Below are positions 11,345-39,002 of a stretch of 44,507 nucleotides of DNA, one piece after another (within the stretch, counting starts at the first letter, position 1; each line of letters begins with the position of its first letter). The stretch covers positions 1 to 44,507 of IMG/VR virus record IMGVR_UViG_3300006922_000047; one strand, 5' to 3'. The DNA is from a virus. Position numbers and translations under genes: made by a program. Below the pieces are notes generated by a model. It had not been told where the DNA came from. It ran no database searches and was given only the letters and a program-made list of their open reading frames with translations.

Positions 11345-11375
11345 TTCCTATGGATACAATGTTCCTCTACTTGTC

Positions 11376-11383
11376 TATTTATG
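11376..11383 (-). promoter_or_regulatory. T4-type late promoter (CATAAATA) for gp8
   Basis: The minus strand reads CATAAATA, matching the relaxed NATAAATA late consensus reported for T4-like cyanophages. It overlaps the stop codon of the 1546-residue gene and lies 32 nt before the gp8 ATG, almost the same spacing as the exact TATAAATA before the distal fibre gene. Confidence 0.55.
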
Positions 11384-17273: not shown

Positions 17274-17281
17274 TATTTATC
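17274..17281 (-). promoter_or_regulatory. T4-type late promoter (GATAAATA) for the cupredoxin fibre gene
   Basis: The minus strand reads GATAAATA followed by ACT, the same three bases that follow the exact late promoter at 1389-1396. It overlaps the stop of the 6421-residue gene and is 20 nt upstream of the fibre ATG. Confidence 0.55.
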
Positions 17282-20200
17282 AGAGATAGTCAACTGTTTC
17301 TTCACCGTAGTCTGCAAGATTGGGGGCAGTCCAGTCATCAGGCACTTCGGTTTCGACCGCAATGGTAGAATTTTTATATCCTGATCCAGTATTATTAACC
17401 TCAACAGTGTTAATTCCAACAATCGCACGAATGTCAGCATTAAATCCACTGATAGAATCAACCCTAACAACAGGTCTACTTGTATAAGCAGAACCAGGTG
17501 AGGTTACGCTAACTTTTTGGATAAATCCACTAGTAAGAACTGCTGTCGCATCAGCATTTTGACCGAAGACAGAACCGAGATAATCAAACGTGATCAGAGA
17601 GTTAGAAGATTCAATAACAGCGACCTCACGGTCTTCTGTCTCACCCTGAATCTCTAAGAAGTCACCAGGTTCAACAGGAGGAACAACCTCAGCAGCGTCA
17701 ACGTCTGCTTCAGAACCAACATATGAGAATGCAGCGAAACTAGAACCAACTCTAGGAATCTCTGAGAAGATGATTCTCGAACCAACAATCTCAAAACCAA
17801 CACCTGGTTCTTGAATAACCCCATTGAGCGAGACAATGATATTATTCTCAGGTCTGATTGTTGTAGACTGAACGCCCTCAGTAAGAGTCAACGAATAGAA
17901 AACATCATCACGTTTCAGGTTAAATGATTGACGTAAAGAATCAAACTCGAAAGAAATATCATCCAACTGTCTCAATTTACCAACATAGAATCCAGTAAAT
18001 GTTGAACCTGGATCAGGTGCCTCTGCGAATTGAATCTTATCAGAGAATGCATTATATGCATTACCAGCACCAGGAGGTTGTAGGATACCGTTGACGAAGA
18101 TAAGCATGTGTCCTGCAGGATCGGGCAGGTATGCTGTACCATTATTGATAGAGAGGTCGAAGGTAGTTTGTATACCATCAAATCCTCTGAATGCTCTCTT
18201 CACGCGAGCGCGTGAGATAACTTTATCGAGTATGACAGATTTGTAATTCTGCTTTCCAATAACATAATCATTTACTCCCCAAGTTCCAATGACACTAGTA
18301 AGATAAAGTCTCTTATTAACGCCAACTGCAACGATATTCCCAATGAGTGCTGCTGCACTTCCTGTAGTAGTAATTGCAGTACTAATCGTGCCCGTGGCGA
18401 TAGTATTTGCACCACCACCTGCGGCACCAAAATCACCAACCGAATCAGTGATAACGAATGTTCCGTCAATAGGAGCAACATATAGATAATCGTTATCAGT
18501 ATCTTTACCAGTAATAATCGCTCTCTTACTTGTGTCTCTACCACCACCAGAATTCAGTTTATAAATGTAATGCCCGACTGTAAAGTCTGCTACACTTGTG
18601 GAGAAACTATAGCGAATATTTCCGCCCGAGATAATTTTATCACCGATCTTAACGTCGAGTCCTTCATATTGTTGAACATCAATATAAAGTTCAGTGCTGC
18701 TAGAGTAAACAACAGAGTTTTTATCAAATGTGCCATTTAAGGTAGAAGTATCAACCGTTAGTTTACCACCACGATTATCTAAAACTGCCGCTTCATTTTT
18801 ATAGAATGCTGTAGGTAAAGCAGACTGCTCGCTGGTGTACGCATAGAAAGGAATATCGTTCGCAAAATCACCTCTCAGTTTAATGATATGAAGTCTATTT
18901 TCAATTGCACTTAATGTTGCAATAGTGGTATTTGCAGCACCCTGAATAACATCATTGATAGTCCAAGTTCCGCCAGTAATTTCTACATCCAGATACTTGT
19001 AATTTTCATCTTCATGGAATCCATAGACAAGACCTGTAACATTAGAATCACCTTGTTTTACAATAGATTCACCCATCGTGTAAGGACCATCAGTGATGTC
19101 TCCATCAATACGGAATCTCTTATAAACTTTAGCAATTTGTGCTTCATTAAGAACGACAGATTCAAGTTCAGCATTTTGATCGCTAAATTGTCCATAGAAG
19201 TAATCTGATGTATTCAATCCACCACCAGCACCTGTAGGTACATAAGTAATGCCATATTCTCTGGTGGGGATAGTAATACCAGGATTGACTGTTACGTCCA
19301 CATAATATGTGGAATTGCCTAATTGGTTTCTATAGAACTGAACATTTTCTCTAACAATCGTAAGAATCTCATCAGTATTATATGCAGATCTCCAAGTAGT
19401 ATTATCGAATGCATAAGAACCATTTGGAGTTGGAGTAGCAAGAGCACCATCAAGAGCACTTTCGATATAGTCTTCTAGTAAGTCTAAAGCGAACAACTTG
19501 ACATTATACTCAGTATTGGAGAAGAATGATGTTCCACCAACAGCAGTATATGCATCAAATACACCCTTGTTAAGTTTAGCACCCCAGACATAAATGCCCG
19601 AAGTTCCATCGCCACTGAAAGTGGATTGATTATTTTCATTTTTAATTCTAATCCTAGTCCTCAGAGTACTAAATCCGAAGGAGAATCTTAGTGTTGCATA
19701 AATTCTATACCACCCATCACCAAAAGGAACAGTATTCATTTCATAAGAAATCAAACCACCCTGAGTTTGGAAAATAGATCCGAAAGAACCATCTGCCAGA
19801 TTGACATCAAAGAAGAGAGTTTGTTCTCCTGATAGTCCTTCATCCAAGGCAATTACAAATCTAACTCTACTGTATTCAGCAGATTTAACAAATACCGAAC
19901 TTGTAAATGTCTGGTCTTCTTCGTTACTAACTGAACCTGCATCAAAAGTATCTGTACCAGAATCAAAGGTAACATTACCCGAGTCCATAGTCGTAAACTG
20001 ATTAAGACTATAATCTCTAATCAATCCATGATTAGTTCCACTAACACTAGCAATAATTTTTTCTGCCGTTTGTGTTCCATCAGGAGCAAGAATATCGTTG
20101 ACCGCAAATGTAGAATCAACAGTAGTCCAATTAACTTCAAATGCTTCGGGATTAGTCCACAAATTAGTTACAGAGAACTCGGATGCAATGGGGGATTGAA

Positions 20201-23200
20201 TCAATCTAGCATCATTAAATGTAAGTACATTACCGACATTAGTGTAGTAATCAAAGACCGTTCCAACACCACTTGTAGGAATCGTAGAAGTAACTCCACT
20301 AGTTCCACCAGTTAATGTATCCGCATCAGCAAATACTGTTCCTGTAATAGGACCAATATAAACTGCATTACCAGTATCTTCAAGAACCTGAGCAGTTCCA
20401 CCACCACTAGATGTTAAGGTCTCACCATTGGTAAATCTAGAAGTATCTAGAACAACGTTAATGTTGGTGATTGTTGCAGGAGTGCTAGGATTGCCTCCAC
20501 TAAATGTTGCTGTGGGAGGAGATGCTGGATCATACCCACGCCCAGGGTTAGTGATAGTTACACTATTAACTTCACGAAGTGTTATGAACGATGCTGCAGC
20601 ATCCGTAGTAGATGCAGTTTCTTCTACTGCATTAGCAACAGAGATTGTGACAATACCTTCAAATTCTTTGTTATTGTCAATGACACCAAATCTCTTAATG
20701 CCATAATGATCGAAACTAACACTATCTTCATAGTAAGTCTGTTGTATTTTGAATGATACGTTAGACGCTTTTGCTGCAGCAGGAAGATTTGCTTCGACTG
20801 CAGTCCAAGTAGCAAAACTTGCAGCATTTGAAGCACTGATAAGGTCTTGAACATAAGTCCAAGCGCCAGCACCAACGCGATAGTAAAGTTCTAAATCTTC
20901 ATCATTAGTACCAGTTTCAGGAGCATCACCACCATTACTACCAGTACCAGCAATTACATATGCACGGAACTTATCATATCCTGTAGTATCTAAACCATCA
21001 GTAATAACAAATCTAGTACCAGATGCAGCACCAAATCTAACGTGTCTACCACCACCAGCAAAACCTCCTGTAGTTCCAGTGCCAGTACCAGCATCTTGTG
21101 CTTCAGTACCTGTTCCGACAGCGGTGAAATCATCTGAGTCCCAAACTCTACCATCATAAACCATGGATGTAACAGAATCGCTAGTGAGAATTGCTGTTAA
21201 ACCATCATTGGTTACATTAGTACCAGAAAGCGTTACATCGGGAGGCAATGTATATCCAGCACCACCGTCAGTGATAGTGATAGATGAAAGAGGACCAAAT
21301 GCTTCAAGAGTCGCAACTGCTGCTGCTGTGATGCCTGCAGAAGGTGCTGTAAACGCAATTGTTGGTAAGGATTGATATCCCGCACCTGCAGTGAATACAA
21401 GTTCACTGACGACACCTTCTCTAGAAAGAGAAATTCTTCTTGCTTCGGTAGTATTAGAAGCTGTGGTATCAGTAATAATAATATCATGGGAAAGATTGTC
21501 AACTAATCCATCAAGGAATGAATCATATTGCCATGCTCCCTGACCAAACTGATCTACAATTGTATTTGTAATTTCAGTCCTATAATAGTTTTTATTGAAC
21601 AGCATTTGCTGAGAAGCATATCTCCCAGGAATACCAGCAGGAGAAAGAATCCTTACTGCAATATCAATCAGTTCTCCCCATCTTGCCTTAACTGCTTCAA
21701 CATTGGTCATTGATTCAGAATCTCTGAATGCAGCAGAAGATGCATATTGACCACTATATTGGTCACCTGTTACTGTTGAACCAGTGTCATAAAGGAGGTT
21801 TTCAATTGCTTTAAGACCGACATTTCTAAGACTTTCGATAGCAAAGATAGTTGCAGAAAGTTGGTCTTCAATATGGTCTAACTGAAGATTTGCTTTGAAA
21901 TAAAGTTCAATTGCATCAATAGTGCTATTGGTTCCACCAGTTTGAAGATCTGAGATTGCACTAATAATAATTAGTTTCAAATCTCTCTGACACTTAGTTC
22001 TACCAGCAGTACCATTTGGATAATCAAATGCTCTATAGGTAACATTGTTTAAGACATAAGTGAACTCGTTATCAAGAAGACCTGTAGCCTCCTCTGCCAT
22101 AAAGTTCCTATTAAAGTGTAATCTATCGGCGGCAATTCCAAAATCTGCACCAGTAGGAGCGATAGTGTCATTAAGAAGAGTAACAAGGTTATCGATGGCA
22201 GTTTGAACATTAGCACACTGACCAGCGTCATTAGTAATACCCCAATCCCCAATAATAAGTTCATTAGTATTGTCAGTAGTCAAATCTCCATTGATTGCTT
22301 GCTTCGCATAGAAACCAAGTCTTTCATGTGCATATACAGATTGCCAAACTTGCAAACGAATATGCTGCAGAACATTATTATTTCCAATATAAAACTTGGA
22401 TGTAGTTGCAACTGTCTTATTGCCACCATTTTCAATATCAGTTGCGATATCATCAAGAATTAGACCCAAGTCCGCTTTACAACGCTCTGTACCAGCAGTG
22501 CTTGTACCATCAGCATTTCTAGGCATTGACTGAGTAAGATCAGGATACCTGGTGAGCATATCAAATGCTGCCTTATCGACAATAGCAGTTCTGTTTGAAC
22601 GAATTAAGTTTGCAGCATCACGGAATCTATACTGTCCACTAACACCAATTTTATTCGTGTAAAGAATATCATTTGGATTATCAGTGTAATTTGCTTGCAG
22701 TGTCTCTTCATAGAAACTATCAACTGTAGCACCACTGTATTCAATAGCAGGTGATACCTTAGTAATTGTTCCGAGATGGTCAACAGGACTTGCCAGGTCT
22801 GCATTTGTAAGCGTGTCAATCAGAATGTCGAGCAGATTATCTGCTGTCGATGCAACATCTGAACAATCTCCAGTAGTATAGTTTAGAAGTGATACTGAAT
22901 TAGTTGCAGCAGAAACAAATGTGTGAGTATATTGTTGGTCTGCAGGAGATGCCCCAACATTTATCGTAATAGTAGTAGCAGTAGTCGCAGAGACTTTAAG
23001 TACACTTTGATGTGCAGGATCATCACTTCTAGGATAAGCATGCTGAGTTACATCGTTATCAGAACTACACGTAAATACAATACCTCCAGTTGAAAGAGAT
23101 ATCTGACTACTAGTGGTCAAACTATGTGTTCCAATCGTCAACTCCATTTCACCAGTCGATGCACTGTAAGTTGCTGCAGTAGGAGTAAACTGAGCGTATA

Positions 23201-26200
23201 CTGTGTTGTTAGAATCAGTAAGTGTGGTATCGGTATACTGAGTTAATCCATGAGAACCAGATACTGTCCACAGAACATTATTGATGATGTATGGAATGAA
23301 ATCACCAAGTTTGTTGTATGCCCAGACTGTTTCGTCAATTTCAGTCTCAACGTGGTTGAGTGCGACTGCATTAACATCTGTCCTATCAACATAAAGTGCT
23401 GAAGCATCCCAGATATGGTTATTAGAACCATTACGAAGATCTTCTACAAGTGCTTCGATGATATCCTCAATATCATCTTCACAATTAACGTTACCACCAG
23501 GAATCGTTAGGGAAGGATACTGTTGAGTTAAGAGGTATACAACTTCTTTTGCAATAAATTTCTTATTATTGTCAAGAAGAGTTGCAGCATCATAATATCT
23601 GTGAGTATTACCAGTAAAACCAGCAACTACTGCACCACCATTTGCATTTGTTGTTGCATTGATCGCATCATTGTTAAACTCTTCACCCAATGTGAAGTCT
23701 TGAGAACCAGACCAATCATATGAGTATGTGTCACCGTTAGCACCATCAAAGTGAAGGAGTAGTTTGGTGTTAATATCACCTTGGAAAATTCCCGCACGAG
23801 GAGTAAATGGTGCAGTATAACGAGCAACGTTAGAGAATCTAAGTTCATCGATATATCCCTCATATGCATCAGCATTATTATAAGAAGAACCAATTACTAT
23901 TGGTTTTGCAGTATATGTATTGGCATCAGTTCCTGTACCTACGGACGCACCATCAATGAACAATTCCATGTCAGTACCGTCTCTAACAACAGCAACGTGT
24001 GCCCAAGTGTCAGCAACTAAAGTGATTGCACCAGAAGTTACTACATCTGTACCATTAACATTAAGTCTAACTTGACCTGCTTCAACATAAAGTCTGAGTG
24101 CAACTTCTGTACCAGTAGTTCTCATGTCAACAAGGTGAGCAGTTCCCGTCAGAGCGCCAGCAGCAGGGTGTACCCATGCTTCTAGAGTATAACTTGCAGT
24201 ACCAACTCCATAGTCGCTAGAAGAAGATTCACTAATATAATCTCCAGTACCATCTAAAGATAGTGATGTTGAACCAAACTTTGTCTGAGTGGTAGAAAGT
24301 GCTGCATTACCAGCAAAAGTCAAGTTATGAATATCAAGACCCGTGGAATTAATTCTACCAAGTTTTCCAAGATACAAAGTTTTTTGTGCTTGGTTATATC
24401 CAATAATTTCTGCTTTGGTATCTCTACTACGCAGGATTTGACCCAGAGAGAAGAAACCTTCACCGACTTCATTAGTAAGGGATAATTTACGAATTGAAAG
24501 ATCTTCATCAGAAACAAAATTACCACTTTCGTTACCATATTCAATTTTATAATTTCTAATAAACTCGTTGTCTTGTAAATCTCCAGTCTCATTATCATAA
24601 GGAAGTATGTAATGATTGATTAATTCATTTTCAGGGAATTTAGTATTAAAATCGGTGGCATTGTTATCAAATTCAACAACTGCAATTTGAGATTCTGAGA
24701 TATCATCCAAAACGATATTTGGATATGTCGTTGATTGAATTCTATCAAATAGCAGAGCAAAGAAGGAAGAACCTTCAGAAATTTCTACTTGTTCAACAAC
24801 TGCATTTGTTGCGGGGTCTACATACGGAGTAGTAGAAGTAATCCTAGCAACAACACGAGACTTAGCACCAATAATTACTTCATCTAGAAGGATATCATAA
24901 AGACCAGGTTTTGATTGATATGTACCAACCGTCTTACTCAAAGTAAGATCATTTGTAATTGTAATATCAGTTCCATAAAGTGGTGTACTCTGTTGAATGC
25001 CACCTGAAGAAGTACCAAGTTGACCTCTAACAACAACTAATGTTGTAGATTCAGAATTTTGAGTGATACCAGTAACTTTAATAATCTCACTACCAATCTG
25101 ATAGTTTTTATCAACAACAAATACTCCAGATGCAACTGGTGCAGGTGTGTTTATATCAGAATCTTGATCAATTAGTTCAAAGGAAGTTGTAGAAGGTCCT
25201 ACAGTATACCTCAGTTTTGCAATAGGAGTCTCTGAACCCTTTTCAAGGTTGATATCCTCAATAATTGCAGTATCACCACTAAGGTCGGTAACACTTTCAC
25301 CAAATTCAAATAATCCATTATTTGCAACTGTAACCGCAGTTTCAAATAGAGCAGAGAATCCTGTAGTATTACCAAGAACAAGTTCACTAGTACTAAATGC
25401 CGAACCTTCCGTGAAGAAACCTTCAATCAGTTCTTTTTGGACATTATTTGGATTTTCCTGACTACCAATATTTACAGTGGTTGCTGTGACTCTAGTGATA
25501 GTCAATTTAGCACCAGAACCAGTTCCTGTCAGAGTTTGTCCAACAGTAGGAACAATACCACTTGTACTTGCAAAGGTGTTCTCAATAATTGCAATAGGAC
25601 TAATTTGAACATTTACATACTTAACACTTGCAGGAGGCGCAGGAGGTTCAGAGAATACGATCGAATCGCTCTGAATTTCAAAAGCAACCTCAGGTGTTTG
25701 AACAACACCATTCATGATAACCATCAACTGATTTGCACTAGCGATTACGGACTCGCCGTTATTAACAGTGAGTGGGAATGCAGTTCTAACGCCATCAAAC
25801 AGAGTAGAAATATCATCAATCCTCTGTACAACTGAGGTTAGAATATTCTCTGAAGATGTCAGTCTCTTTTGACGGAAAAGAATTTCCGTATTGTTGAACT
25901 CACTGTAAATGGGTTCAACTAGAGTAAAGTTTTGAATATTGGGAACAATTGCTTCATTAGCAAGTTCAACAGACTTAGTTAACTCAAAATCAGTTTCTTT
26001 ATTGGGAATTGTAGTAAAGTCGCTAATTGAAAGTTCACCAAATACCTTAAAGGATGCAGGGTGTACATTTCTAACCAGAACATCTTTCCATTCACTAATA
26101 GAGACAGAAGACTTAACGGCATAAGAGAAGTCCTGATAATAGTAAGAGTCTTGAATCTTTTGAATGATTTCTGAAGGTTTGCCAACATCATCAACAAATT

Positions 26201-29200
26201 GTCCAGTGGTCTTAGTAATAGATCCAACTTCTAGGACACCTCTAGCAATCTTAAGTTTGGATATGACACCAGAAGACTTGGAGATGACACCAGTAATAGT
26301 TTCACCTATAGTAAATGTTCCTGTATAGTTAATCATTTTCAGGATTCTAGGTCCTACTTGCCAACCAGAGTTTGTAGAAACATAACCCTGTGCAGTAGCA
26401 TTTTCTAGAGTATCACCCTGATAAACCAATTCACCTTCTAGGAAGGTAGAAGTGATAACATTTGCTTCTGCTGCACCACCAAAAGATTCAGTAAGAACCG
26501 ATTGACGACCAGTACCAGCATTAACATAAGAGATTGCATCACCAAGTTCTGCGTTTGCAGAAGTAATAGCAAGTTTTAATTGATCATCCTCCAAAGAGTT
26601 TGCTGTTCCAGCAATTGCATAATAAGTATTGGACCCGTTAAGTCTACCAATAGCACCCGCTGCGAGAGGGAAATCAGATCCCTCACCAGTATCAGTGACA
26701 TTTAGCGTAACTTCAGAACCATTTTGAATACCATGAGGGAAAGCAAACTGTAGGAGACCCAAGTCAATGTTAATAACATAATTGAAAGATGACTTGAGAT
26801 TGACCTGAGGTTGTGAAGAATAACCTGACCCAGGATCTTTAACTTCGATGGCAAAGAGTCTGCCATTTTTAATTGTTGATACTGCAACAGCACCAGTACC
26901 ACCACCACCAGAAATAACAACAGTAGGCGCTTGAGTATATCCAGAACCAGGATCAGTAACAGTAATACTGTCAAGAATACTAGTAGCAGTCAACTGAGCG
27001 TTGATTGGGAAAGAAATTTCTGGTCGTAAGGTATAATCATGAGAATAGTCAAAACCGAAGTTATTATTCTTTAGATTTTTAATCTTACCAATTTCTTCAC
27101 CAAGAGTAAAGAGTGACGCACCAGATCCAGACGCAGGAATAACAACATTCAGTTCTGCACCAGAACCAGTAAGTCCCGACCCAAGGATGCCACTGATTGC
27201 TTCAATGTCAATATTAGCTACAGTATATCCTTTACCAGGACTAGTGACTACAACAGATTGAATTTGACCAGGGATCAATACACCTTCTTCATCTGTACCA
27301 TCGCCAACAGCAATTTGAACAATTCCACCTTCACCATCACCCGAAATAGGAACACCTCTGTAAATTCCTACAGCATATTCAGTTCCAGGTTCATTAATCT
27401 CAACTCTTTCAATTTTTCTATTAGATTCGATAGCAGAGACAATAGGTAATTTTGTATAGAATCCACCAGGATTAACAATACGAATATTTGAAATAGAACC
27501 GACTGCCTTTTTAGAACTAGTGCTGTAAGAGGCATTTGCGATAGTAGCAGCAGCTTCTGGTTGATTTGGAAGTATAAACTGGAATGTATTATCACCAGTA
27601 GTAATTGTGCCGCCAGAAGTAGAATCTACAGTAAACGTGCCAACATATGGTGAGAATGTAACATCCAGATAACTATCTGAAATGACAGGAGAATCCGCTC
27701 CAGGTCTAGAGGGATCGAAATAATATGAGATATTTGTAATTACATCCTCAGTAACTTTAAACTTAACTGTTGGTGTAGGAACACCTTGACCAGTAACTCC
27801 AGGAGTACCGATACGTTCAATGGAGTTGAATGAATATTCCAACTTATAGAGAGGATCCTTAGCAAAGGAAAGGTTTCCACCTAACATTGAAGAGTGTGCC
27901 AAATTGAACAAATATTGATGTCCATAGTACATCTTCAATGTAGGAGACTTCACTAATACAGTTACACTACTACCAGTTGTAGCAGGAGAACTAACTGCGT
28001 TTTGAGGTAACTTGTATGTAAATTCAATTGGACTAATGACTCTTTCTACAGGGAAAGAACCATCGTACTCATCGTAAACAGTACCAGAAACTTCCTCATC
28101 TGGATTACCATCAACAAAAATCTGCTCATTCGCTTTCAAATAATGGAGAGTGTCAGAGACACAATATACTGTATCGCTATTGTTAACAGTAGTTACTTGA
28201 AGAATCTTACTAAGATTAGAAACCAAAGTGATTTTTAAAACACCTGTAAGATTTGTAATTTGTACTGTAGAACTAGACGAATTGAAAGATACATCACTTG
28301 AAGTTAATGTGACAACAGAACCTACAACATAACTTGAGGATCCACTGACTTCCACAATCTTAATACTGTAATCATTATCAGCATAGGATTTAAACTTAGC
28401 ATATTCATGTAAATTATTTGTACCACCAATTTCTTCTGGGGCATCAAACGTTGCAAGATCAATATCAAATGTTCCAGGAGTAGTGTTTACAATATCGGAG
28501 AATGTTTGTGCAATCTCATTTACATCATTTGGAACTGGTCCAACGATATTATAAGTGCTTTGCTCATCAAACTGCTCTGTTGACAATTCATATACATTGA
28601 CATCATTAGTCCAAGAATTGTTATTAATAGCAACATATACTTTTTTATTGGGAATATCTACTCGTGTGATATAACCGCTATTGACAAAAGAAGCACCATT
28701 TTTAATGACCAATTTTGCTCCAACAGTAAAGTTGAAAGACTGGTTGATAGTGAGTTCTTGAACATTATCAATCTTAAGTAAATTAAATGTCTTAAAGTAA
28801 TAACGATTTCTGACATTCGCAGTTACTTTTAATTTTTGAGAACCAGGAGAAGGGACAGTTGCAGTTCTAGAACTCCAAACGTCTCTACTATAAGTAAGAT
28901 TTAACGTACCCTCAGACATTGTAGTGATGGCAGTGCTCAAGTCTAAAGTTTGGAAACCAACTTCTGCTAGAGCATAACCAACAGAGACTATAGTCAATGG
29001 AACACCAGTTACAGGAGTTACTGCAGTTCTAGTAAATCCATAGTTTGAATTTGTGTTTACGTTGAATGTACCTCTTCTAGTAGCATCGGAATTTTTATCA
29101 ACCTTCAACCCAAATGATTCATAATCGATATAATCGTATCTAGCATGTTGCTGTGTAAACCATGCAGTATCAACAAAAGTATGATCTAATGCAAGTGTAA

Positions 29201-32200
29201 CTGCGCCAGGAAGAGCCAAAGGATCTCCAAAATCGCTAGGTGCTGTTACAGTTACCGCTCTATTACGAATTCTTAAAGAGTCAATAAAGAATTGACCTTG
29301 ATTGTCTTCGATAAATCCACCTGCACTAGGGAATCCAGGAACATTACCAATATGAATGTCCTTAGAACCAAGAGCAGTATCTGAAATCGTAGCAGAAATT
29401 TGCTCAACTCCATTTACATATACTTTAAATGTATTTGTTTCTTTCCTAAGAGAAATTAGTTGCCATGTATTATCAGCAAACAATCCAGTGTTTGTACCTG
29501 TTGCAGCAGAAGCACCAGAGAATACTGTACTATTATTAGTAACAACCATCTCAATTCTACCATCATTGGCAGTTCCATCTGTATTGTAATACAACCAAAG
29601 ACCACCAGTAGCACTTTGAGCATCACCAATAGAAATAAGAGACTGCTTATCTGCAGCTAATGTCTCAGCATTACTCCCAGCAGCATCTTTATACAGAAGG
29701 AATTCGATGACAAAATCATCTTGCAAAGCATTACCCAAACTAGTTGCAGCAATCTTTGCAGCACTATTTTCAAATACAGTAGATGCACCTGTTTGGAATC
29801 CGAAAATCTTCAAATATCCATCAGTGTCACGTTCAATAGATCCACCTAAACCAAGTGTAGTTAAAGTATGGTGGGTTGTAGTGTCAGACAAATCACTATC
29901 AAAAGTGAAGATTGCTTCATTTCTATTCCAAGACGTTTGACCGAAGATGTATGGATCACCAGAGTTATCTACATCAATACTGTTTACAGTAATACCTTCG
30001 ACTGTATTTTCAGTAAAGTCATTAGTTGTATGATTTACAATTTTACCTTTATAATCAAGTTTTACTAAATCTACAGTCTTTTTGTCTGTAACATTATCTA
30101 CTCTTGTAAATGCGATATTTAACTCACTGAAAATATCAAGAACACACTTGGGTGCTAAATTGATATCTCTTCCAGGGGCAACATAACGATAATTCCAAAG
30201 TGAATTGCCAGATGTGTTATACTTACCAACCCAGAAACTATCTCTTGTAGTATCATCACTCTTCAACTGAAGAGTAGAGGTGACATATATGTCATCAAAC
30301 TCATCAATCGCAAAAGAAATATCTAAGAATGAATATGCATTGTTTGTAATCTCATTGATCCAAACCGTTGTTATTGCTGTGCTACTAATAGTTGCTTTAC
30401 CAATAGCAAAGTTTCTATCACCAGCATTTTGACTCGTAGAAGTTTCTAGGAGGAAATATAAATTACCAGCAGAATCTAAAAGAAGATCTTTGATTTCCTC
30501 ATTACCATTTGTAGATACAATTTTTCTCTTAACAGTAAACGTTCCAGAAGAATCCAAGACACCAACAAATGCATCATAAGGATAAGGTGAGTTGGTATTA
30601 GTAAAACCACCAATGATAACTCTATTATCAGATGTTCCAATAATTGAAGTAATATTGTCAGAACGACTTGCACCTGAAATTCCAGCATATGCCTTTTGGA
30701 ATTCTAATGTAGCACTCAACCCATCAGATGACTGATTATACTTAGCAACAATAATATCAGGATTATATGCTCCTAAGATACTACTGTTTGGCTTATTGAT
30801 ACCAGCAACCCAAATAGTATTACCTTCAACATAGATCTTTTGCAATTCTGCATAATTCAACCCACTAGTAAGTTCGAGAGTTTTTTCCCATTCTTTAACA
30901 CCACCAGCAGACAATTTAGCAATAAACGCTACAGTATTACCACTATCATCAGGAGTTGAACCGCAAATAAAGGTTTCTTTAGTTTCATTGACAAAAATAT
31001 CATTTACCTTAACATTTTCTTCATTAGCAAATTTTGCAATAAAGTAATCTGCCTTTTTAAATATTTGAGGATGAGAAAGAATTACTCTTGGATTTTCAGT
31101 GTATGAATTTCCAGAATTAATGATATTAACAGATTTAATAGATCCAATAGAATCTACAACTGCCTCTAGTTCTGCACTTTCTCCATCACCATCAATTACA
31201 ATAGTTGGAGGAATATCTTCATTATATCCACTACCAGTTTGGTCAATAGTAACTTCTTCAATACCTTTTAGTTGTCTTACCGTAAACTCTTTATTGGTAG
31301 TTTCAATATTTTCAGAATAATCAACAAAAATAGTATCGTTGACTTCTAAGGTATGAGGAACTTCTGTTGTAATTTGACCGTAATTCAATCCTTGACGATA
31401 TTGGTATCCAAAACTATTAATAGTTTCGCCCTTAATTCTAGAAACACGAGCAGAAGCACCAGAACCACCTGTTCCATCATTATTAAAGATGAGTTTATCA
31501 TCTACCTGATAACTTGTACCAGCATTTTCAACAACAAAGTCTGTAATAGATGCATTTTCAAATCTACTAATGGTTTCAACTTCAATATCAACTTTGGATT
31601 CAGTTTTTACCTTAGGGAAGTAATCAAAAATCTGAAGGGGAGGTTCTTCTAGAATTTCATCGGGATCATCAGTTTCGTCCTGACTGATGATGCCATCTCT
31701 ATTTTCATCTTCTACTTCAAAGCGAAGAATATCTCCATTCTCCAGAGACAGTGAATTGGTAGATGCATTAGGTGTTCTTTCAACATCAATATCAACATTT
31801 TGATATGGATCTCTATAACGGACAACACCTCTTGGGATATTTTGCTGAGTTGCATCTTCATCTAAGTTCCAAGAATCAACAACAGAGTTAAAGTCACTAC
31901 CAAGAACATAAGGGAATACAGCATTACCTGCTTCAGTATTATCAATAGTTACAAAATAACAATATCTACCATTAGGGAACTGAGGTGTCTTACAGAAACG
32001 CCCATTATATTGATCCAAATCACCAAGATTGAATACGTACTCATAGTCTTCAACATAAGTACCAGCACTATCTGTACTGAGAAGTGGTCCCTCTGTTCTT
32101 ACTGGGGTGGGATTAGTGATATCATCAAAAACTAAATCAGTTTTCAATCTGTATGAAGAAGAAATTTTAGTAATATTTGAAGATTGGTCTGTAGGGTCTG

Positions 32201-35200
32201 AGTAACCATATGGTCCATAAATTGGGTTTCCATCAAATGCCCAACCAATAATAGGAGAGTGCTCTAATTGAGTTTCCTGCTCAACGATAACATCATTAGT
32301 ATCTTTAATTAAATTATCACCAAGGATATATCTAAGTCTCTGAGGGTTAGATAGGTGAGCATATTCACCTCCATACTGAGTATTATATCCTTCAAAAACA
32401 GAACCTTGAGAATCATCAAAAGTAGCAGATTCTTGTAAGTTATATGTCCACTGGAATACATTTGCAGAGAAAATTGCATCCTGCCCCACAGAGGTCAGAT
32501 TAATAACAGTTGTACCTTGAGTATAGTTAATACCTCTATTATCAATTTGAATGCTAGTAACTTTACCAGCATTTTCGCCCTCAGTATCAATAACTGCCTG
32601 TGCTTTTGCACCGAAACCAATACCTTGAATCTGTACCTCAGGTGCAGTAGTATATCCAGATCCACCCGAAATAATTGCAATAGAAATAATTCTACCGTTG
32701 TTGACAATTGCCTGAGCAACAGCACCGACACCAGAACTTACAGTAACAGTTGGACTGGAGATATAGGAACTTCCTGCAGATGACAAATTAACAGACTTAA
32801 TAGGACCTCTAACAGATGCAGTACCAGTAGCACCAGTACCACCACCACCAACAATAGTAATTTCTGGTTGAGATGTATATCCAGTACCACCACTAGTAAT
32901 CAGAATATTAGATACACTACCTTTAGTGATAATAGCAGTTGCAGACGCTCCAGAACCGCCTCCACCAACAATAGAGACAAGAGGAGAGGAAGTATAACCA
33001 GATCCACCAGTATCAACACTAATGCTGCTTACAGAACCATTTACAACAACTTCTGCAGTAGCACCAGATCCCCCACCACCTGTAATAGCTGCACTTGGAG
33101 GTGATGCCGCATCATAATCCTGACCAGCATTAGAAATGGTTATGCTAGTGATAGGTCCGAAAGTTTTTGATAATGTTGACTTATAGGACCATACAGAAAC
33201 ACCGTTGACCCAAGTTCCAATAGGACCAGGACTAATTACATTTTTTGTAGAAATTGTAGATGGACTCTGTACAAATCTATTAAGTTTTCTTTGGTTGCCA
33301 GGAAGAAGTGCAGAACCTACAAATGGACCAACATTATAGTTGGGGATACCAGTAGATGCAACATACACATAGTTGTCGTTAAAGAACGAGTTCTGAATAT
33401 TTGTTGTGTAAGAAGAAATACTGTTATTGATTGGGGTATTTGTTGACTTACCTTTATTCAAGTTAACAGAAACAAGAATATTACCTTGTGGTGCAACAAG
33501 TGCAGTTTGAGGTAACTGATATTGGAATACCGTATCATTGTCTCTAGAAGTTACTTCAAACGTTCCGTTATAAATGATCGGATTAGCACCATAAATCGTA
33601 ACTTCGTCTCCAACCAAGAGACCGTGATTATTTGAACATGTTACTGTTGCAAATCTGTCAGCAACACCACCAAAAGTAATACCTGTAACTTCAATGAGTT
33701 TTTTAACGTTATATAACCAAGTAGTCAGTAATGGTTGCTCACCAGTACCACCAAGTTTAGCAACAGTTAGTTTATCACCTGGTAAGTAGTAAGAACCAGT
33801 GTCAGTAAGATTTGTTTGTTGTGCATCAACGATACCAACAATATTCATTACGACTTCTTGAGTAGTTCCTCTGTTTAATACAACTTTAAAGTTAGAAACT
33901 ACCTCTGTGGCAGAATCCCAAACATAGGGATTAAGACCAATACTACCAGGAGAAAGACGAGTACACTCAATAAACTGATTGAGAGATTTCTCTTTATAGC
34001 GAACAACTTCAGATCCACCAAGAATAAACTCACCGTTCCTTTCAGGCCAACCAATAGTAGAGTCAACAGTAATAATACTGTCATCTTCTCCAAGAGGTTC
34101 TGCTAGTCTAGTTTTATAAGGAACTACAAACGTTCCTTGAATGGTTTCTTCAGAAAGAACAAGTTCATAGATGGTAGTATTTGCAGTATTGATTGCAATA
34201 TAATTTTCTACAAGAGCACTTGCATCTTGAACATTAATATCAGCAATATCTGCAACTTGAGAAATTAATGCATCTTGAATATTCCTAGGATCACCACTTT
34301 CTAACGTTGCACGCAGAATTGTGTTAATAGACCAAGTTGCTGCCGATGGTTTAATAATTTGATCTTTAGGATAAGAAACATCAATAGTTTCACCATAAAG
34401 AAGTTTAAACAGATATTCTATACTAAAGGTTGTTCCTTTTGTCTGATAGAAAGATTTAATATTTTTGATTGCTGTACGAACATCAATCTTCTTGTAATCT
34501 AATTCAGGAACGTTTGGTAAGAACTGTTCAGTATACTTATCAAGAAGTCTTTTTACAAATACAGCATCTAAGCATGTTATAGCGTCACCAATATTATGAA
34601 CCGATGCAGCAGTATTATTACTAAAAATTGCATTGCCATCTTCGGTATAACCAATAATACCACTTGCTGCTCTGGCACAATTTAAAAACTGTGCTTTAGA
34701 GTATCCTCTACCAGGTTGTAAAATTTCAAATCCAGTAATTTCATTAACACCAATTTCAACTGATGCAGAAGCTTGAGGAGGACTTTGAATGATAACTTTA
34801 GGAGGTTCGGTCTGACTATATCCTGTACCAAATTCAGTGATATTAATATCAGTAATTCTACCATTAAACACAGAAGCTACCGCTTGTGCTCCACTACCAC
34901 CCAGATATGTACCTGTTGAAGGATCAGTTCTATCGTCAATAATATAAACTGAAGGGACATCATCATATCCAGCACCACCATCAAGAATTTCGATAGTGAT
35001 GACACGTCCATCGGAATCGACTACTGTCTCTAAAACTTGAGCGCCAGTAGGTTCAATAATTTTAATTCTAGGAGTATTAGTGTAACCTTGTCCAGCATTC
35101 AGAATATTTACTGAAGTAACTTCACCATTAGTAATCTCAGTCTGTAAACTTGCTTTAATTGGGTTACTACCAGTTGGTTCATCAATATAAATTTCAGGTG

Positions 35201-36545
35201 GTGTAGTGTAACCAGAACCCCCAGAAGATACTACGAGTTGTCCCGAAATAGAACCATTTACTATGGTAGGAGGTTCTACGACAGCACCACCAGGTTGTTG
35301 GAACGTAATTCTAGGAACCGCAGTATAACCGCTACCAGAATCTGTTAATGTCAATTCAGTTACTGTGCCACCAACAACAGTTGCAGCAAGTTTTGCTGAT
35401 GTAGAACCCTCTTGGGTAGGTGCCTCTACATTTACAATAGGAGGATTGGTGTCACTATAACCAACTCCACCAAAAATTAATTGGAGATTTTTAACTCCGT
35501 TGATAAGTGCCTTTGCAGCACCAGCATTGCCATCTTCACTATCAATACTGATGGCAGGAGGATAATCGAATCTATAAGAACTACCAGTTTCATCAATATT
35601 GATTGATGTGATTTCTCCTTGATTATTAATTCTGGCATGTGCAGCTGCACCAGAACCAAAGGATGGGATTGGAGCATCTACATAAAATAATGTAAGTTTT
35701 CTACCTTTTAGAGGAACAATGTCCCTGAAGATTAAAAGATCATTATCAAATACATAATTTACTTTAGGTGTTAGAAGAGTTCCATCATAGTATGCAATAA
35801 CGTATTCATCAAGTTCAGGAATAAACGTGTTTCCATTACGAGTGATTTGAAATTCAGTTTTACCATCTCCAAAACTAGCAGAGATGTCATTTAGAGCGAA
35901 AATATTATTTTCTACAAACCCACTAAAGTACTTGATACTGGTGAGATCAGCACTATCAGAAGTTAATACTTCTCTGGGTGCTTCTGTGAATACAATACTT
36001 GTTCCAGAAATATCGTAGTCAACACCAGGTACAAGATACTCTCCATATACTTGAACAAGTAGATGTTGTGGTGAGACGGGTGTTACTGGTCTATCTTCGC
36101 TTAAGAGAGCAAAACTACGTGTAGTCCCATCAAAGTTACGAAGGGGACTTTGTAATTCGATCTGCTTAATTTTTACCTGTTCGTATGATACACCAGGTCT
36201 AAAAGAAACGTTTGGTGAACCAGAAATACCCTCGTAAAAAATAACCTCATCATTAATTTTGATGGAGCCATTTTCAGGTAAAAACTTATCGATATTTTCA
36301 ACAGTAATTGTAGTATCACTACTATCAATGGATTCTACAAGAATAGTAGCACCGTCAAGAATATCAATATCGAGTTTATCAATATCAAGATATTCTAAAA
36401 AATTGTTTAGAATATTTTGCCCTAAACCCGTTTTTTCTTGAGATTTGTAGTAATACTGTATAAACTTTCCAAATAGTTCATATTCCGATGGAATAAAGTC
36501 TGGGAGTTGATTAGAAACTGCGTTGGAGACCTTATTGATATTCAT
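17280..36545 (-). CDS. Giant modular baseplate/tail protein (6421 aa), in the gp7 position
   Basis: An uninterrupted 19.3-kb gene encoding roughly 0.7 MDa. The N-terminus (LPDFIPSEYELFGKFIQYYY) is a conserved opening in marine phage wedge proteins. Approximate modules by residue: NGxxxxPGxDY-type modules 155-290; Gly-rich repeats 292-622; helical wedge-like region 630-760; Gly-rich repeats 1135-1342; YHYH 1425-1550; EF-hand loop 1613-1624; propeller-like region 1845-2205; LamG 2215-2430; degenerate cupredoxin-like unit 2860-2950; further Gly-rich repeats near 3090-3260; NGxxQxP module near 3600; LamG 4070-4255; repeated helical units 4320-5020; jelly-roll 5145-5290; CBM-like domain 5460-5670; two NGxxQxPG modules 6118-6282; and a final GxGY repeat. 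It follows gp6 by 4 nt. T4 gp7 (1032 residues) holds this slot, but homology to gp7 is not visible; equivalence is positional inference. Confidence 0.85.
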   Translation of the reverse strand: MNINKVSNAVSNQLPDFIPSEYELFGKFIQYYYKSQEKTGLGQNILNNFLEYLDIDKLDIDILDGATILVESIDSSDTTITVENIDKFLPENGSIKINDEVIFYEGISGSPNVSFRPGVSYEQVKIKQIELQSPLRNFDGTTRSFALLSEDRPVTPVSPQHLLVQVYGEYLVPGVDYDISGTSIVFTEAPREVLTSDSADLTSIKYFSGFVENNIFALNDISASFGDGKTEFQITRNGNTFIPELDEYVIAYYDGTLLTPKVNYVFDNDLLIFRDIVPLKGRKLTLFYVDAPIPSFGSGAAAHARINNQGEITSINIDETGSSYRFDYPPAISIDSEDGNAGAAKALINGVKNLQLIFGGVGYSDTNPPIVNVEAPTQEGSTSAKLAATVVGGTVTELTLTDSGSGYTAVPRITFQQPGGAVVEPPTIVNGSISGQLVVSSGGSGYTTPPEIYIDEPTGSNPIKASLQTEITNGEVTSVNILNAGQGYTNTPRIKIIEPTGAQVLETVVDSDGRVITIEILDGGAGYDDVPSVYIIDDRTDPSTGTYLGGSGAQAVASVFNGRITDINITEFGTGYSQTEPPKVIIQSPPQASASVEIGVNEITGFEILQPGRGYSKAQFLNCARAASGIIGYTEDGNAIFSNNTAASVHNIGDAITCLDAVFVKRLLDKYTEQFLPNVPELDYKKIDVRTAIKNIKSFYQTKGTTFSIEYLFKLLYGETIDVSYPKDQIIKPSAATWSINTILRATLESGDPRNIQDALISQVADIADINVQDASALVENYIAINTANTTIYELVLSEETIQGTFVVPYKTRLAEPLGEDDSIITVDSTIGWPERNGEFILGGSEVVRYKEKSLNQFIECTRLSPGSIGLNPYVWDSATEVVSNFKVVLNRGTTQEVVMNIVGIVDAQQTNLTDTGSYYLPGDKLTVAKLGGTGEQPLLTTWLYNVKKLIEVTGITFGGVADRFATVTCSNNHGLLVGDEVTIYGANPIIYNGTFEVTSRDNDTVFQYQLPQTALVAPQGNILVSVNLNKGKSTNTPINNSISSYTTNIQNSFFNDNYVYVASTGIPNYNVGPFVGSALLPGNQRKLNRFVQSPSTISTKNVISPGPIGTWVNGVSVWSYKSTLSKTFGPITSITISNAGQDYDAASPPSAAITGGGGSGATAEVVVNGSVSSISVDTGGSGYTSSPLVSIVGGGGSGASATAIITKGSVSNILITSGGTGYTSQPEITIVGGGGTGATGTASVRGPIKSVNLSSAGSSYISSPTVTVSSGVGAVAQAIVNNGRIISIAIISGGSGYTTAPEVQIQGIGFGAKAQAVIDTEGENAGKVTSIQIDNRGINYTQGTTVINLTSVGQDAIFSANVFQWTYNLQESATFDDSQGSVFEGYNTQYGGEYAHLSNPQRLRYILGDNLIKDTNDVIVEQETQLEHSPIIGWAFDGNPIYGPYGYSDPTDQSSNITKISSSYRLKTDLVFDDITNPTPVRTEGPLLSTDSAGTYVEDYEYVFNLGDLDQYNGRFCKTPQFPNGRYCYFVTIDNTEAGNAVFPYVLGSDFNSVVDSWNLDEDATQQNIPRGVVRYRDPYQNVDIDVERTPNASTNSLSLENGDILRFEVEDENRDGIISQDETDDPDEILEEPPLQIFDYFPKVKTESKVDIEVETISRFENASITDFVVENAGTSYQVDDKLIFNNDGTGGSGASARVSRIKGETINSFGYQYRQGLNYGQITTEVPHTLEVNDTIFVDYSENIETTNKEFTVRQLKGIEEVTIDQTGSGYNEDIPPTIVIDGDGESAELEAVVDSIGSIKSVNIINSGNSYTENPRVILSHPQIFKKADYFIAKFANEENVKVNDIFVNETKETFICGSTPDDSGNTVAFIAKLSAGGVKEWEKTLELTSGLNYAELQKIYVEGNTIWVAGINKPNSSILGAYNPDIIVAKYNQSSDGLSATLEFQKAYAGISGASRSDNITSIIGTSDNRVIIGGFTNTNSPYPYDAFVGVLDSSGTFTVKRKIVSTNGNEEIKDLLLDSAGNLYFLLETSTSQNAGDRNFAIGKATISSTAITTVWINEITNNAYSFLDISFAIDEFDDIYVTSTLQLKSDDTTRDSFWVGKYNTSGNSLWNYRYVAPGRDINLAPKCVLDIFSELNIAFTRVDNVTDKKTVDLVKLDYKGKIVNHTTNDFTENTVEGITVNSIDVDNSGDPYIFGQTSWNRNEAIFTFDSDLSDTTTHHTLTTLGLGGSIERDTDGYLKIFGFQTGASTVFENSAAKIAATSLGNALQDDFVIEFLLYKDAAGSNAETLAADKQSLISIGDAQSATGGLWLYYNTDGTANDGRIEMVVTNNSTVFSGASAATGTNTGLFADNTWQLISLRKETNTFKVYVNGVEQISATISDTALGSKDIHIGNVPGFPSAGGFIEDNQGQFFIDSLRIRNRAVTVTAPSDFGDPLALPGAVTLALDHTFVDTAWFTQQHARYDYIDYESFGLKVDKNSDATRRGTFNVNTNSNYGFTRTAVTPVTGVPLTIVSVGYALAEVGFQTLDLSTAITTMSEGTLNLTYSRDVWSSRTATVPSPGSQKLKVTANVRNRYYFKTFNLLKIDNVQELTINQSFNFTVGAKLVIKNGASFVNSGYITRVDIPNKKVYVAINNNSWTNDVNVYELSTEQFDEQSTYNIVGPVPNDVNEIAQTFSDIVNTTPGTFDIDLATFDAPEEIGGTNNLHEYAKFKSYADNDYSIKIVEVSGSSSYVVGSVVTLTSSDVSFNSSSSTVQITNLTGVLKITLVSNLSKILQVTTVNNSDTVYCVSDTLHYLKANEQIFVDGNPDEEVSGTVYDEYDGSFPVERVISPIEFTYKLPQNAVSSPATTGSSVTVLVKSPTLKMYYGHQYLFNLAHSSMLGGNLSFAKDPLYKLEYSFNSIERIGTPGVTGQGVPTPTVKFKVTEDVITNISYYFDPSRPGADSPVISDSYLDVTFSPYVGTFTVDSTSGGTITTGDNTFQFILPNQPEAAATIANASYSTSSKKAVGSISNIRIVNPGGFYTKLPIVSAIESNRKIERVEINEPGTEYAVGIYRGVPISGDGEGGIVQIAVGDGTDEEGVLIPGQIQSVVVTSPGKGYTVANIDIEAISGILGSGLTGSGAELNVVIPASGSGASLFTLGEEIGKIKNLKNNNFGFDYSHDYTLRPEISFPINAQLTATSILDSITVTDPGSGYTQAPTVVISGGGGTGAVAVSTIKNGRLFAIEVKDPGSGYSSQPQVNLKSSFNYVINIDLGLLQFAFPHGIQNGSEVTLNVTDTGEGSDFPLAAGAIGRLNGSNTYYAIAGTANSLEDDQLKLAITSANAELGDAISYVNAGTGRQSVLTESFGGAAEANVITSTFLEGELVYQGDTLENATAQGYVSTNSGWQVGPRILKMINYTGTFTIGETITGVISKSSGVISKLKIARGVLEVGSITKTTGQFVDDVGKPSEIIQKIQDSYYYQDFSYAVKSSVSISEWKDVLVRNVHPASFKVFGELSISDFTTIPNKETDFELTKSVELANEAIVPNIQNFTLVEPIYSEFNNTEILFRQKRLTSSENILTSVVQRIDDISTLFDGVRTAFPLTVNNGESVIASANQLMVIMNGVVQTPEVAFEIQSDSIVFSEPPAPPASVKYVNVQISPIAIIENTFASTSGIVPTVGQTLTGTGSGAKLTITRVTATTVNIGSQENPNNVQKELIEGFFTEGSAFSTSELVLGNTTGFSALFETAVTVANNGLFEFGESVTDLSGDTAIIEDINLEKGSETPIAKLRYTVGPSTTSFELIDQDSDINTPAPVASGVFVVDKNYQIGSEIIKVTGITQNSESTTLVVVRGQLGTSSGGIQQSTPLYGTDITITNDLTLSKTVGTYQSKPGLYDILLDEVIIGAKSRVVARITSTTPYVDPATNAVVEQVEISEGSSFFALLFDRIQSTTYPNIVLDDISESQIAVVEFDNNATDFNTKFPENELINHYILPYDNETGDLQDNEFIRNYKIEYGNESGNFVSDEDLSIRKLSLTNEVGEGFFSLGQILRSRDTKAEIIGYNQAQKTLYLGKLGRINSTGLDIHNLTFAGNAALSTTQTKFGSTSLSLDGTGDYISESSSSDYGVGTASYTLEAWVHPAAGALTGTAHLVDMRTTGTEVALRLYVEAGQVRLNVNGTDVVTSGAITLVADTWAHVAVVRDGTDMELFIDGASVGTGTDANTYTAKPIVIGSSYNNADAYEGYIDELRFSNVARYTAPFTPRAGIFQGDINTKLLLHFDGANGDTYSYDWSGSQDFTLGEEFNNDAINATTNANGGAVVAGFTGNTHRYYDAATLLDNNKKFIAKEVVYLLTQQYPSLTIPGGNVNCEDDIEDIIEALVEDLRNGSNNHIWDASALYVDRTDVNAVALNHVETEIDETVWAYNKLGDFIPYIINNVLWTVSGSHGLTQYTDTTLTDSNNTVYAQFTPTAATYSASTGEMELTIGTHSLTTSSQISLSTGGIVFTCSSDNDVTQHAYPRSDDPAHQSVLKVSATTATTITINVGASPADQQYTHTFVSAATNSVSLLNYTTGDCSDVASTADNLLDILIDTLTNADLASPVDHLGTITKVSPAIEYSGATVDSFYEETLQANYTDNPNDILYTNKIGVSGQYRFRDAANLIRSNRTAIVDKAAFDMLTRYPDLTQSMPRNADGTSTAGTERCKADLGLILDDIATDIENGGNKTVATTSKFYIGNNNVLQHIRLQVWQSVYAHERLGFYAKQAINGDLTTDNTNELIIGDWGITNDAGQCANVQTAIDNLVTLLNDTIAPTGADFGIAADRLHFNRNFMAEEATGLLDNEFTYVLNNVTYRAFDYPNGTAGRTKCQRDLKLIIISAISDLQTGGTNSTIDAIELYFKANLQLDHIEDQLSATIFAIESLRNVGLKAIENLLYDTGSTVTGDQYSGQYASSAAFRDSESMTNVEAVKARWGELIDIAVRILSPAGIPGRYASQQMLFNKNYYRTEITNTIVDQFGQGAWQYDSFLDGLVDNLSHDIIITDTTASNTTEARRISLSREGVVSELVFTAGAGYQSLPTIAFTAPSAGITAAAVATLEAFGPLSSITITDGGAGYTLPPDVTLSGTNVTNDGLTAILTSDSVTSMVYDGRVWDSDDFTAVGTGTEAQDAGTGTGTTGGFAGGGRHVRFGAASGTRFVITDGLDTTGYDKFRAYVIAGTGSNGGDAPETGTNDEDLELYYRVGAGAWTYVQDLISASNAASFATWTAVEANLPAAAKASNVSFKIQQTYYEDSVSFDHYGIKRFGVIDNNKEFEGIVTISVANAVEETASTTDAAASFITLREVNSVTITNPGRGYDPASPPTATFSGGNPSTPATITNINVVLDTSRFTNGETLTSSGGGTAQVLEDTGNAVYIGPITGTVFADADTLTGGTSGVTSTIPTSGVGTVFDYYTNVGNVLTFNDARLIQSPIASEFSVTNLWTNPEAFEVNWTTVDSTFAVNDILAPDGTQTAEKIIASVSGTNHGLIRDYSLNQFTTMDSGNVTFDSGTDTFDAGSVSNEEDQTFTSSVFVKSAEYSRVRFVIALDEGLSGEQTLFFDVNLADGSFGSIFQTQGGLISYEMNTVPFGDGWYRIYATLRFSFGFSTLRTRIRIKNENNQSTFSGDGTSGIYVWGAKLNKGVFDAYTAVGGTSFFSNTEYNVKLFALDLLEDYIESALDGALATPTPNGSYAFDNTTWRSAYNTDEILTIVRENVQFYRNQLGNSTYYVDVTVNPGITIPTREYGITYVPTGAGGGLNTSDYFYGQFSDQNAELESVVLNEAQIAKVYKRFRIDGDITDGPYTMGESIVKQGDSNVTGLVYGFHEDENYKYLDVEITGGTWTINDVIQGAANTTIATLSAIENRLHIIKLRGDFANDIPFYAYTSEQSALPTAFYKNEAAVLDNRGGKLTVDTSTLNGTFDKNSVVYSSSTELYIDVQQYEGLDVKIGDKIISGGNIRYSFSTSVADFTVGHYIYKLNSGGGRDTSKRAIITGKDTDNDYLYVAPIDGTFVITDSVGDFGAAGGGANTIATGTISTAITTTGSAAALIGNIVAVGVNKRLYLTSVIGTWGVNDYVIGKQNYKSVILDKVISRARVKRAFRGFDGIQTTFDLSINNGTAYLPDPAGHMLIFVNGILQPPGAGNAYNAFSDKIQFAEAPDPGSTFTGFYVGKLRQLDDISFEFDSLRQSFNLKRDDVFYSLTLTEGVQSTTIRPENNIIVSLNGVIQEPGVGFEIVGSRIIFSEIPRVGSSFAAFSYVGSEADVDAAEVVPPVEPGDFLEIQGETEDREVAVIESSNSLITFDYLGSVFGQNADATAVLTSGFIQKVSVTSPGSAYTSRPVVRVDSISGFNADIRAIVGINTVEVNNTGSGYKNSTIAVETEVPDDWTAPNLADYGEETVDYL
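21480..23600 (-). repeat. Diverged helical repeat units in the giant protein
   Basis: Units begin near residues 4320, 4647, 4807 and 4979. Three share a pattern: an opening like LLDNNKKFIAKE / LIRSNRTAIVDK / LHFNRNFMAEE, then a Cys-x2-Asp (CEDDIEDII, CKADLGLIL, CQRDLKLII), then D-L/I-x-NGG-like, a Tyr, and a helix ending VWAYNKLG / VYAHERLG / IFAIESLR. The fourth (MLFNKNYYRTEI) is shortened. They are the only clearly helical, Cys-containing blocks in an otherwise beta-rich protein. Confidence 0.65.
32520..33140 (-). repeat. Tandem Gly-rich GxGYTSxP repeats, block 2 of the giant protein
   Basis: Residues about 1135-1342 hold five to six near-regular units of about 33 residues: GSGYTSSPLVSIVGGGGSGA, then A-x-A-x-I-x-x-G-x-V-x-x-I-x-I-T, and back to GGTGYTSQP. 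The pitch and alternating pattern suit a beta-helix or beta-prism stalk. This is the best preserved copy of the module in the window. Confidence 0.85.
34680..35670 (-). repeat. Gly-rich GxGY repeats, block 1 of the giant protein
   Basis: Residues about 292-622 contain roughly nine diverged units with GSGYTAVPRI, GSGYTTPPEI, GQGYTNTPRI, GAGYDDVPSV, GTGYSQTEPP and GRGYSKAQ as anchor motifs, spaced about 30-45 residues apart. They are less regular than block 2, with charged substitutions, which suggests an older expansion. Confidence 0.85.
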
Positions 36546-38583: not shown

Positions 38584-39002
38584 TAGTCTGGTTTTTGTAA
38601 TACAAACGTGATCTCTTCGACAATAGGAACTCCAACAACCTTATATTCTATAGAAATAAGGAGATTATTGTTTTCAAGGATTGGAGTTACCTCCACACTT
38701 GTCAATTCAACACGAGGTTCATACTGTTTAATTGTATTTATTACCTCATCACGAATAGCATCAACGGTAAAAGGGTCCAAAGGCTCGAACAATAGTTCGT
38801 AAACCCTGGACCCAATTAAAGGTTGGAATGGTTTTTCCCCTGGTGTAGTCAAAATAAGATTTTTGACTGACTGCTTTATGCAATTCTCGTTGGTTACGGC
38901 AGAAACATCATCAGTAAATAAATTTCTGGAAAAAGAGATACCAATATCTTTGAAAGACTTGGATCTTTTTACATTCTTACCACCAATTGGTTTGAGAGCC
39001 AT
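38583..39002 (-). CDS. 25: Baseplate wedge / sheath initiator gp25 (139 aa)
   Basis: T4 gp25 homologue (T4: 132 residues), the inner baseplate protein that anchors the first ring of the contractile sheath and is homologous to TssE of type VI secretion. Sequence support: the DDVSAVTNENCIKQSVKNLI segment, then TTPGEKPFQPLIGSRVYELL, which is the family signature (T-x-x-GE-x-x-x-x-P-x-x-G-x-x-x). The C-terminal half has the expected beta-hairpin end (VVGVPIVEEITFVLQ). It is followed by gp6 through a one-base TAATG overlap. A weak late-promoter-like octamer lies 22 nt upstream. Identity is confident. Confidence 0.95.
   Translation of the reverse strand: MALKPIGGKNVKRSKSFKDIGISFSRNLFTDDVSAVTNENCIKQSVKNLILTTPGEKPFQPLIGSRVYELLFEPLDPFTVDAIRDEVINTIKQYEPRVELTSVEVTPILENNNLLISIEYKVVGVPIVEEITFVLQKPD

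Follow-up and report, generated by a model that had tools for sequence, protein, structure and literature searches.

In bacteriophage T4, gp7 is a protein of 1,032 residues (Pfam families PF21428, PF21427, and PF21456) whose gene lies in a slot after that of gp6. In marine cyanophages, giant proteins encoded in this slot are a known kind and have already been detected in virions. S-SZBM1_208 (UNH61325.1, annotated as 'baseplate wedge initiator'), a protein of 6,619 residues and 724 kDa, was found in virions by 71 peptides that cover 13.5% of its length (PMC9146016), and ORF122 of S-CREM2 was found in virions with 91 unique peptides (PMC10665884). Other relatives are annotated 'gp7' (S-RIM8) or 'baseplate wedge initiator' (S-RIM50), and proteins of up to 7,694 residues have been reported from huge phages (PMC7162821). 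It has also been published that T4 gp7 is absent from cyano- and pelagimyophages, where VrlC replaces it (PMC7029224).

The sequence analysed here (the window) is a virus record of 44,507 bases. Positions 17280-36545 of the minus strand, on which all the features located below also lie, form a single unbroken ATG-initiated ORF of 6,421 codons, in agreement with an earlier note on this DNA. The encoded protein has a mass of 689.7 kDa, so that six copies would total 4.1 MDa, which bears out the figure of about 4 MDa in that note. The nearest named relatives of the window are isolates of Synechococcus phage ACG-2014b, of which 21 records match the giant gene; the best match is a single piece that spans all 19,266 bases at 97.1% nucleotide identity. 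Their gene order around the giant gene is identical to that of the window. The ACG-2014b product ABF04_gp087 (NC_027130, 'virion structural protein', 6,422 aa), which is one codon longer, has the same neighbours and the same 97.1% nucleotide identity over the full gene, and is essentially the same protein. When the gene is divided into blocks of 500 codons, dN/dS lies between 0.08 and 0.29 in every block against ACG-2014b and between 0.13 and 0.31 against S-RIM50. Since synonymous changes dominate in all blocks, the entire chain is maintained, and purifying selection, judged from these ratios, acts along the full length of the ORF. The possibility of a chimera of separate genes or an assembly error, raised earlier, is for practical purposes ruled out by the single-piece match and by the low ratios throughout. 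Two database records of relatives differ in this region. The 'complete' genome NC_047718 (ACG-2014b isolate Syn7803C61) lacks a stretch of about 17.7 kb that reaches from midway through the giant gp7 gene to within the VrlC gene and takes in gp9, the 1,546-aa wedge gene, and gp8; this is probably an assembly gap. In KJ019070 (ACG-2014d), two structural proteins are annotated over the C-terminal region, which suggests a split or frameshifted gene.

The genes around the giant ORF are those of a baseplate. The minus-strand order is a phrog_719 wedge gene (825 aa); PAAR; gp25 (38583-39002; phrog_261); gp6 (36550-38583; phrog_219, E 2e-230); the giant gene; a gp9-like connector of 408 aa (16028-17254; phrog_677, PF07880); a wedge protein of 1,546 aa (11379-16019; phrog_708); gp8, of 510 aa (9812-11344; phrog_438); and a VrlC homologue (DUF4815) of 2,645 aa (1875-9812; PF16075; BLASTP to P-HM1 VrlC, E 0). 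The giant gene thus comes directly after gp6, in the gp7 slot, and gp8 is three genes further. The 'gp6-x-gp8' arrangement proposed earlier is therefore correct at its gp6 side, but the gp9-like and 1,546-aa wedge genes intervene, so that the giant gene is not immediately between gp6 and gp8; the arrangement is literally true in P-HM1. The VrlC gene bears on the published replacement of gp7. Both here and in P-HM1, VrlC is encoded as its own gene alongside a slot protein with a gp7 core, and so the statement that gp7 is absent does not fit. VrlC was rejected as the gp7 substitute on these grounds, and a phage of the published type, with VrlC in place of gp7, is hardly credible at this locus.

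Homology with T4 gp7 is found in a core near the N terminus. Profiles of residues 1-880 match gp7-slot proteins of every size. Residues 1-110 (part A; 36216-36545) and 614-882 (part B; 33900-34706) are contiguous in P-HM1, S-PM2, S-CRM01, S-CREM2, and ACG-2014f, indicating that residues 111-613 (34707-36215), which include about eight G-x-G-Y repeats, are an insertion into a core of approximately 370 residues. Part B carries the motif KSFYQTKGT...LFKLLYGE and matches PF23786 (E 3e-5, below the cut-off). Searched against 12 T4 proteins and 500 shuffled sequences, the core profile finds T4 gp7 residues 732-758 as its best match (sequence E 2e-6), while the next best of the 511 other sequences has an E of 0.47, and none of 5,000 further shuffles attains the domain score of T4 gp7. 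Profile-profile comparison (hhalign) of the core with 20 T4-type gp7 sequences aligns T4 residues 727-822, which comprise the KGT motif and the start of domain V (92%, E 6e-7). In searches of the PDB, gp7 chains rank first with alignments A1 (E 0.039) and A2 (E 0.003), and gp7 was not recovered with the larger alignment A4. A bridge between the families is provided by gp92 of phiM7, an intermediate with matches to the T4 gp7 family (E 9e-7) as well as to PHROG_701 (E 7e-19), a family of 6,136 positions that covers the giant protein.

Part A probably corresponds to the helical domain of T4 gp7 (residues 643-689), which aligns in order with the core of the giant protein; the match, at T4 residues 648-681, is weak and not significant alone. 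In Pfam and PHROGs, residues 1-640 and domain VI of T4 gp7 have no counterpart in the giant protein, although divergence could hide them. AlphaFold models of residues 1-880 and of the 371-residue core of a relative have low confidence in the helices, and Foldseek with the first model returned nothing at E<=0.001. A structure search with the core model lists a 1,031-residue chain of 9f4a (the gp7 of this entry has 1,032 residues) in third place, at an E of 0.033 that is weak and not proof, and VIA-align lists chiefly small beta domains.

A second conserved block (the C-anchor), absent from the earlier note, is located at residues 3440-3507 (26025-26228) and has the pattern KSS..W...HPASFKVFG. 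It is present in 10 of 10 gp7-slot sequences and in 470 phage records, and in S-CREM2, S-CRM01, and phiM7 it lies close to the C-terminal end. PF23786 spans the KGT motif and then this block, the same order as in the giant protein. The weak counterpart of the block in T4 gp7 is KIKSNLPSSRWKSDVIRFVHPVGF at residues 865-890; this HP-x-GF match is marginal (i-E about 0.001-0.01) but collinear in 20 of 20 gp7 sequences, and in shuffle controls 1 of 500 sequences scored better in one run and 0 of 5,000 in another. T4 gp7 shares with the giant protein the slot after gp6, the KGT motif, and the start of domain V, and its helical and HP-GF motifs align weakly, in an unchanged order; it is without the giant insertions and the C-terminal extension.

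Given the profile matches of the core, the phiM7 bridge, and the collinear second block, the giant protein is, by sequence comparison, homologous to gp7 and is enlarged by long insertions and by a C-terminal extension of 2,914 residues. The single matches to T4 gp7 are short (27-96 columns), the similarity is limited to about 120 core residues plus the short block, and adhesin-like modules make up most of the length of the protein, features that would also suit a giant adhesin or tail fibre with no relation to gp7, placed in the slot by chance, with another protein in the wedge role. This is very unlikely, however, since the core is the best-conserved part in all the slot proteins, including those of 896-1,454 aa that contain little else, and it reaches the gp7 profiles via several routes. 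With a probability of roughly 87%, we read the giant protein as the gp7 wedge subunit of an ACG-2014b-type, T4-like marine cyanophage, an ancestral core with huge peripheral additions that bear modules. The same wedge assignment in the earlier note is supported by synteny, by the profile homology of the core, and by the published mass spectrometry of virions of same-slot relatives. Among the latter is S-SZBM1_208, which is 43% identical to the giant protein over residues 5-800 and shares with it the slot, both conserved blocks, and the phycobiliprotein-like modules described below; absence from virions is therefore not what is seen in relatives.

A length of 6,421 aa is typical for the family and not exceptional. 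The gp7-slot proteins form a smooth size series, with 896 residues in Melnitz-1, 1,006 in phiM7, 1,454 in S-CRM01, 1,937 in S-CREM2, 3,048 in S-PM2, 4,225 in ACG-2014f, 4,446 in P-HM1, and 6,066-8,359 in most further relatives. Past the second block, the extension measures 16-86 aa in S-CREM2, S-CRM01, and phiM7, 2,914 residues here (residues 3508-6421; 17283-26024), and at most 4,850 aa among relatives; the last value comes from a record of 44,489 bases with a frame of 8,359 aa in the gp7 slot. The N-terminal and C-terminal parts fall into separate PHROGs families, phrog_19630 (1,266 positions) and phrog_18802 (3,007 positions), which might indicate that the chain is cut after translation into a gp7 part and an extension that enter the virion as separate proteins. 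Such cleavage seems unlikely, since S-SZBM1_208 was reported as a single 724-kDa entry and most relatives retain one open frame.

Several kinds of modules are found in the insertions and the extension. The YHYH and LamG modules named in the earlier note were recovered by Pfam: a YHYH domain at residues 1338-1536 (31938-32534; PF14240, E 5e-34), and LamG-like domains at residues 2301-2433 (29247-29645; PF13385, E 2.5e-6) and 4098-4242 (23820-24254; PF13385, E 1.5e-21). YHYH proteins are predicted metal-dependent hydrolases (PMC7824862). Of the other modules named there, the EF-hand is visible by eye as an EF-hand-type loop, DENRDGIISQDE, at residues 1613-1624 (31674-31709), but has no Pfam match; the propeller-like stretch matches nothing in Pfam, and for the CBM-like stretch there is only a Reelin match below the Pfam cut-off. 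The G-x-G-Y repeats occupy residues 290-612, 1130-1345, and 3010-3255. The neighbouring 1,546-aa wedge protein has its own YHYH domain (PF14240, E 2e-15) as well as a weak match of the Reelin type that resembles the one in the giant gene, and the G-x-G-Y repeat type is also present in neighbouring baseplate proteins (9812-16019, 39794-42271, and 1875-9812). For PHROG families such as phrog_460 ('head closure'), this repeat alone accounts for the match.

The C-terminal extension also contains three helical modules of about 110 residues, defined by a repeat profile, that were missed by the earlier note and that resemble phycobiliproteins, the light-harvesting pigment proteins of the hosts. They are located at residues 4317-4430 (23256-23597), 4641-4760 (22266-22625), and 4819-4922 (21780-22091). 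The second exceeds the Pfam cut-off for PF00502 (Phycobilisome), and the other two were found by profile searches, which detect the second as well. The cut-off is exceeded in the giant protein (E 4e-7) and in three relatives. The repeat profile finds three modules here, two in P-HM1 gp7, and seven in S-SZBM1_208; S-PM2 and P-HM1 also have the helical module in further giant tail ORFs. Profiles built from phage modules alone were searched against 177,635 PDB sequences. With one profile, the best 60 of 147 matches are all phycobiliproteins (best E 1.5e-6); with a second, all 44 matches at E<=0.01 are phycobiliproteins (best E 1.4e-6). Reversed modules gave no PDB match at E<=10, and a single phage module searched with phmmer found no phycobiliprotein in the PDB. 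The idea that the PF00502 match arose by chance was overturned by the phycobiliproteins that the phage-module profiles list in the PDB.

The modules align with residues 39-160 of the phycocyanin alpha chain (PF00502); the matches to phycobiliproteins mostly start at residue 39, and the N-terminal helices (1-38) are unmatched in most. Unlike phycocyanin alpha, the phage modules are embedded in a giant virion protein, and in module 2 the F' region is about 15 residues shorter. Cys84 is the bilin-attachment residue of phycobiliproteins. Among 61 distinct phage modules, this position is kept in 54, Asp87 in 58, and Arg86 in 36. The Cys84 and Asp87 positions are conserved in all three modules of the giant protein, where Cys4355, Cys4689, and Cys4852, three of the 15 cysteines of the chain, occupy the Cys84 position.

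A scan of 14 control genomes with PF00502 gave a response in Synechococcus elongatus alone. Among 11 phages, the six that respond are all marine cyanophages, always in ORFs of 3,681-6,619 aa, and T4, phiM7, Melnitz-1, S-CRM01, and S-CREM2 have no match. A tblastn search with module 2 returned 344 phage records, all from cyanophages except for one unhosted marine virus. The resemblance might still reflect convergence on a helical hairpin instead of common descent: conservation within the module is best along a stretch of about 60 residues, the matches of individual modules to PF00502 are weak (7 of 24 at E<=0.1), and no cellular relative or intermediate was found in genome contigs. We consider this improbable in view of the phycobiliproteins found by both profiles and by no reversed module, the direct alignment of module 2 with phycocyanin alpha over the entire module, the common C-x-R-D, and the near confinement to cyanophages. 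In a limited literature search, no description of phycobiliprotein-like phage modules was found, and they are, as far as could be found, a new element.

If the modules are derived from phycobiliproteins, they could carry a bilin at the conserved cysteine in the virion, perhaps attached with the help of phage CpeT, and the chromophore could make adsorption light-dependent. We regard this as a rather doubtful proposal. CpeT (PF06206) was found in five of the six module-bearing phages but not in any of the five that lack modules; given the small counts and the relatedness of the phages, this co-occurrence is a lead and not a test. Light-dependent adsorption has been reported for several marine cyanomyoviruses (PMC2984593, PMC5082946), which makes the bilin-carrier option worth testing.

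By analogy with T4, the ancestral gp7 core, composed of the two N-terminal stretches and the block at 3440-3507, would pack against gp6 and gp25 and form the wedge together with them. The insertions and the extension would then display the LamG, YHYH, G-x-G-Y, and phycobiliprotein-like modules around the baseplate periphery, most likely for host recognition, with the added modules, among them the lectin-like LamG domains, contacting the host. This periphery might partly assume the roles of T4 gp10, gp11, gp12, and the long fibres. The helical modules may serve as spacers in the structure or as domains that bind the host; a role as bilin carriers is the least likely of these options.

A giant gp7 contradicts the published view of cyanomyophages without gp7, and the family shows how this wedge subunit expands from about 900 to more than 8,000 residues while its core stays fixed. 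The phycobiliprotein-like modules are a testable candidate for the target of phage-encoded bilin enzymes and CpeT, and for the reason that some cyanophages need light to adsorb; bilin binding, if real, would bear directly on light-dependent cyanophage adsorption.
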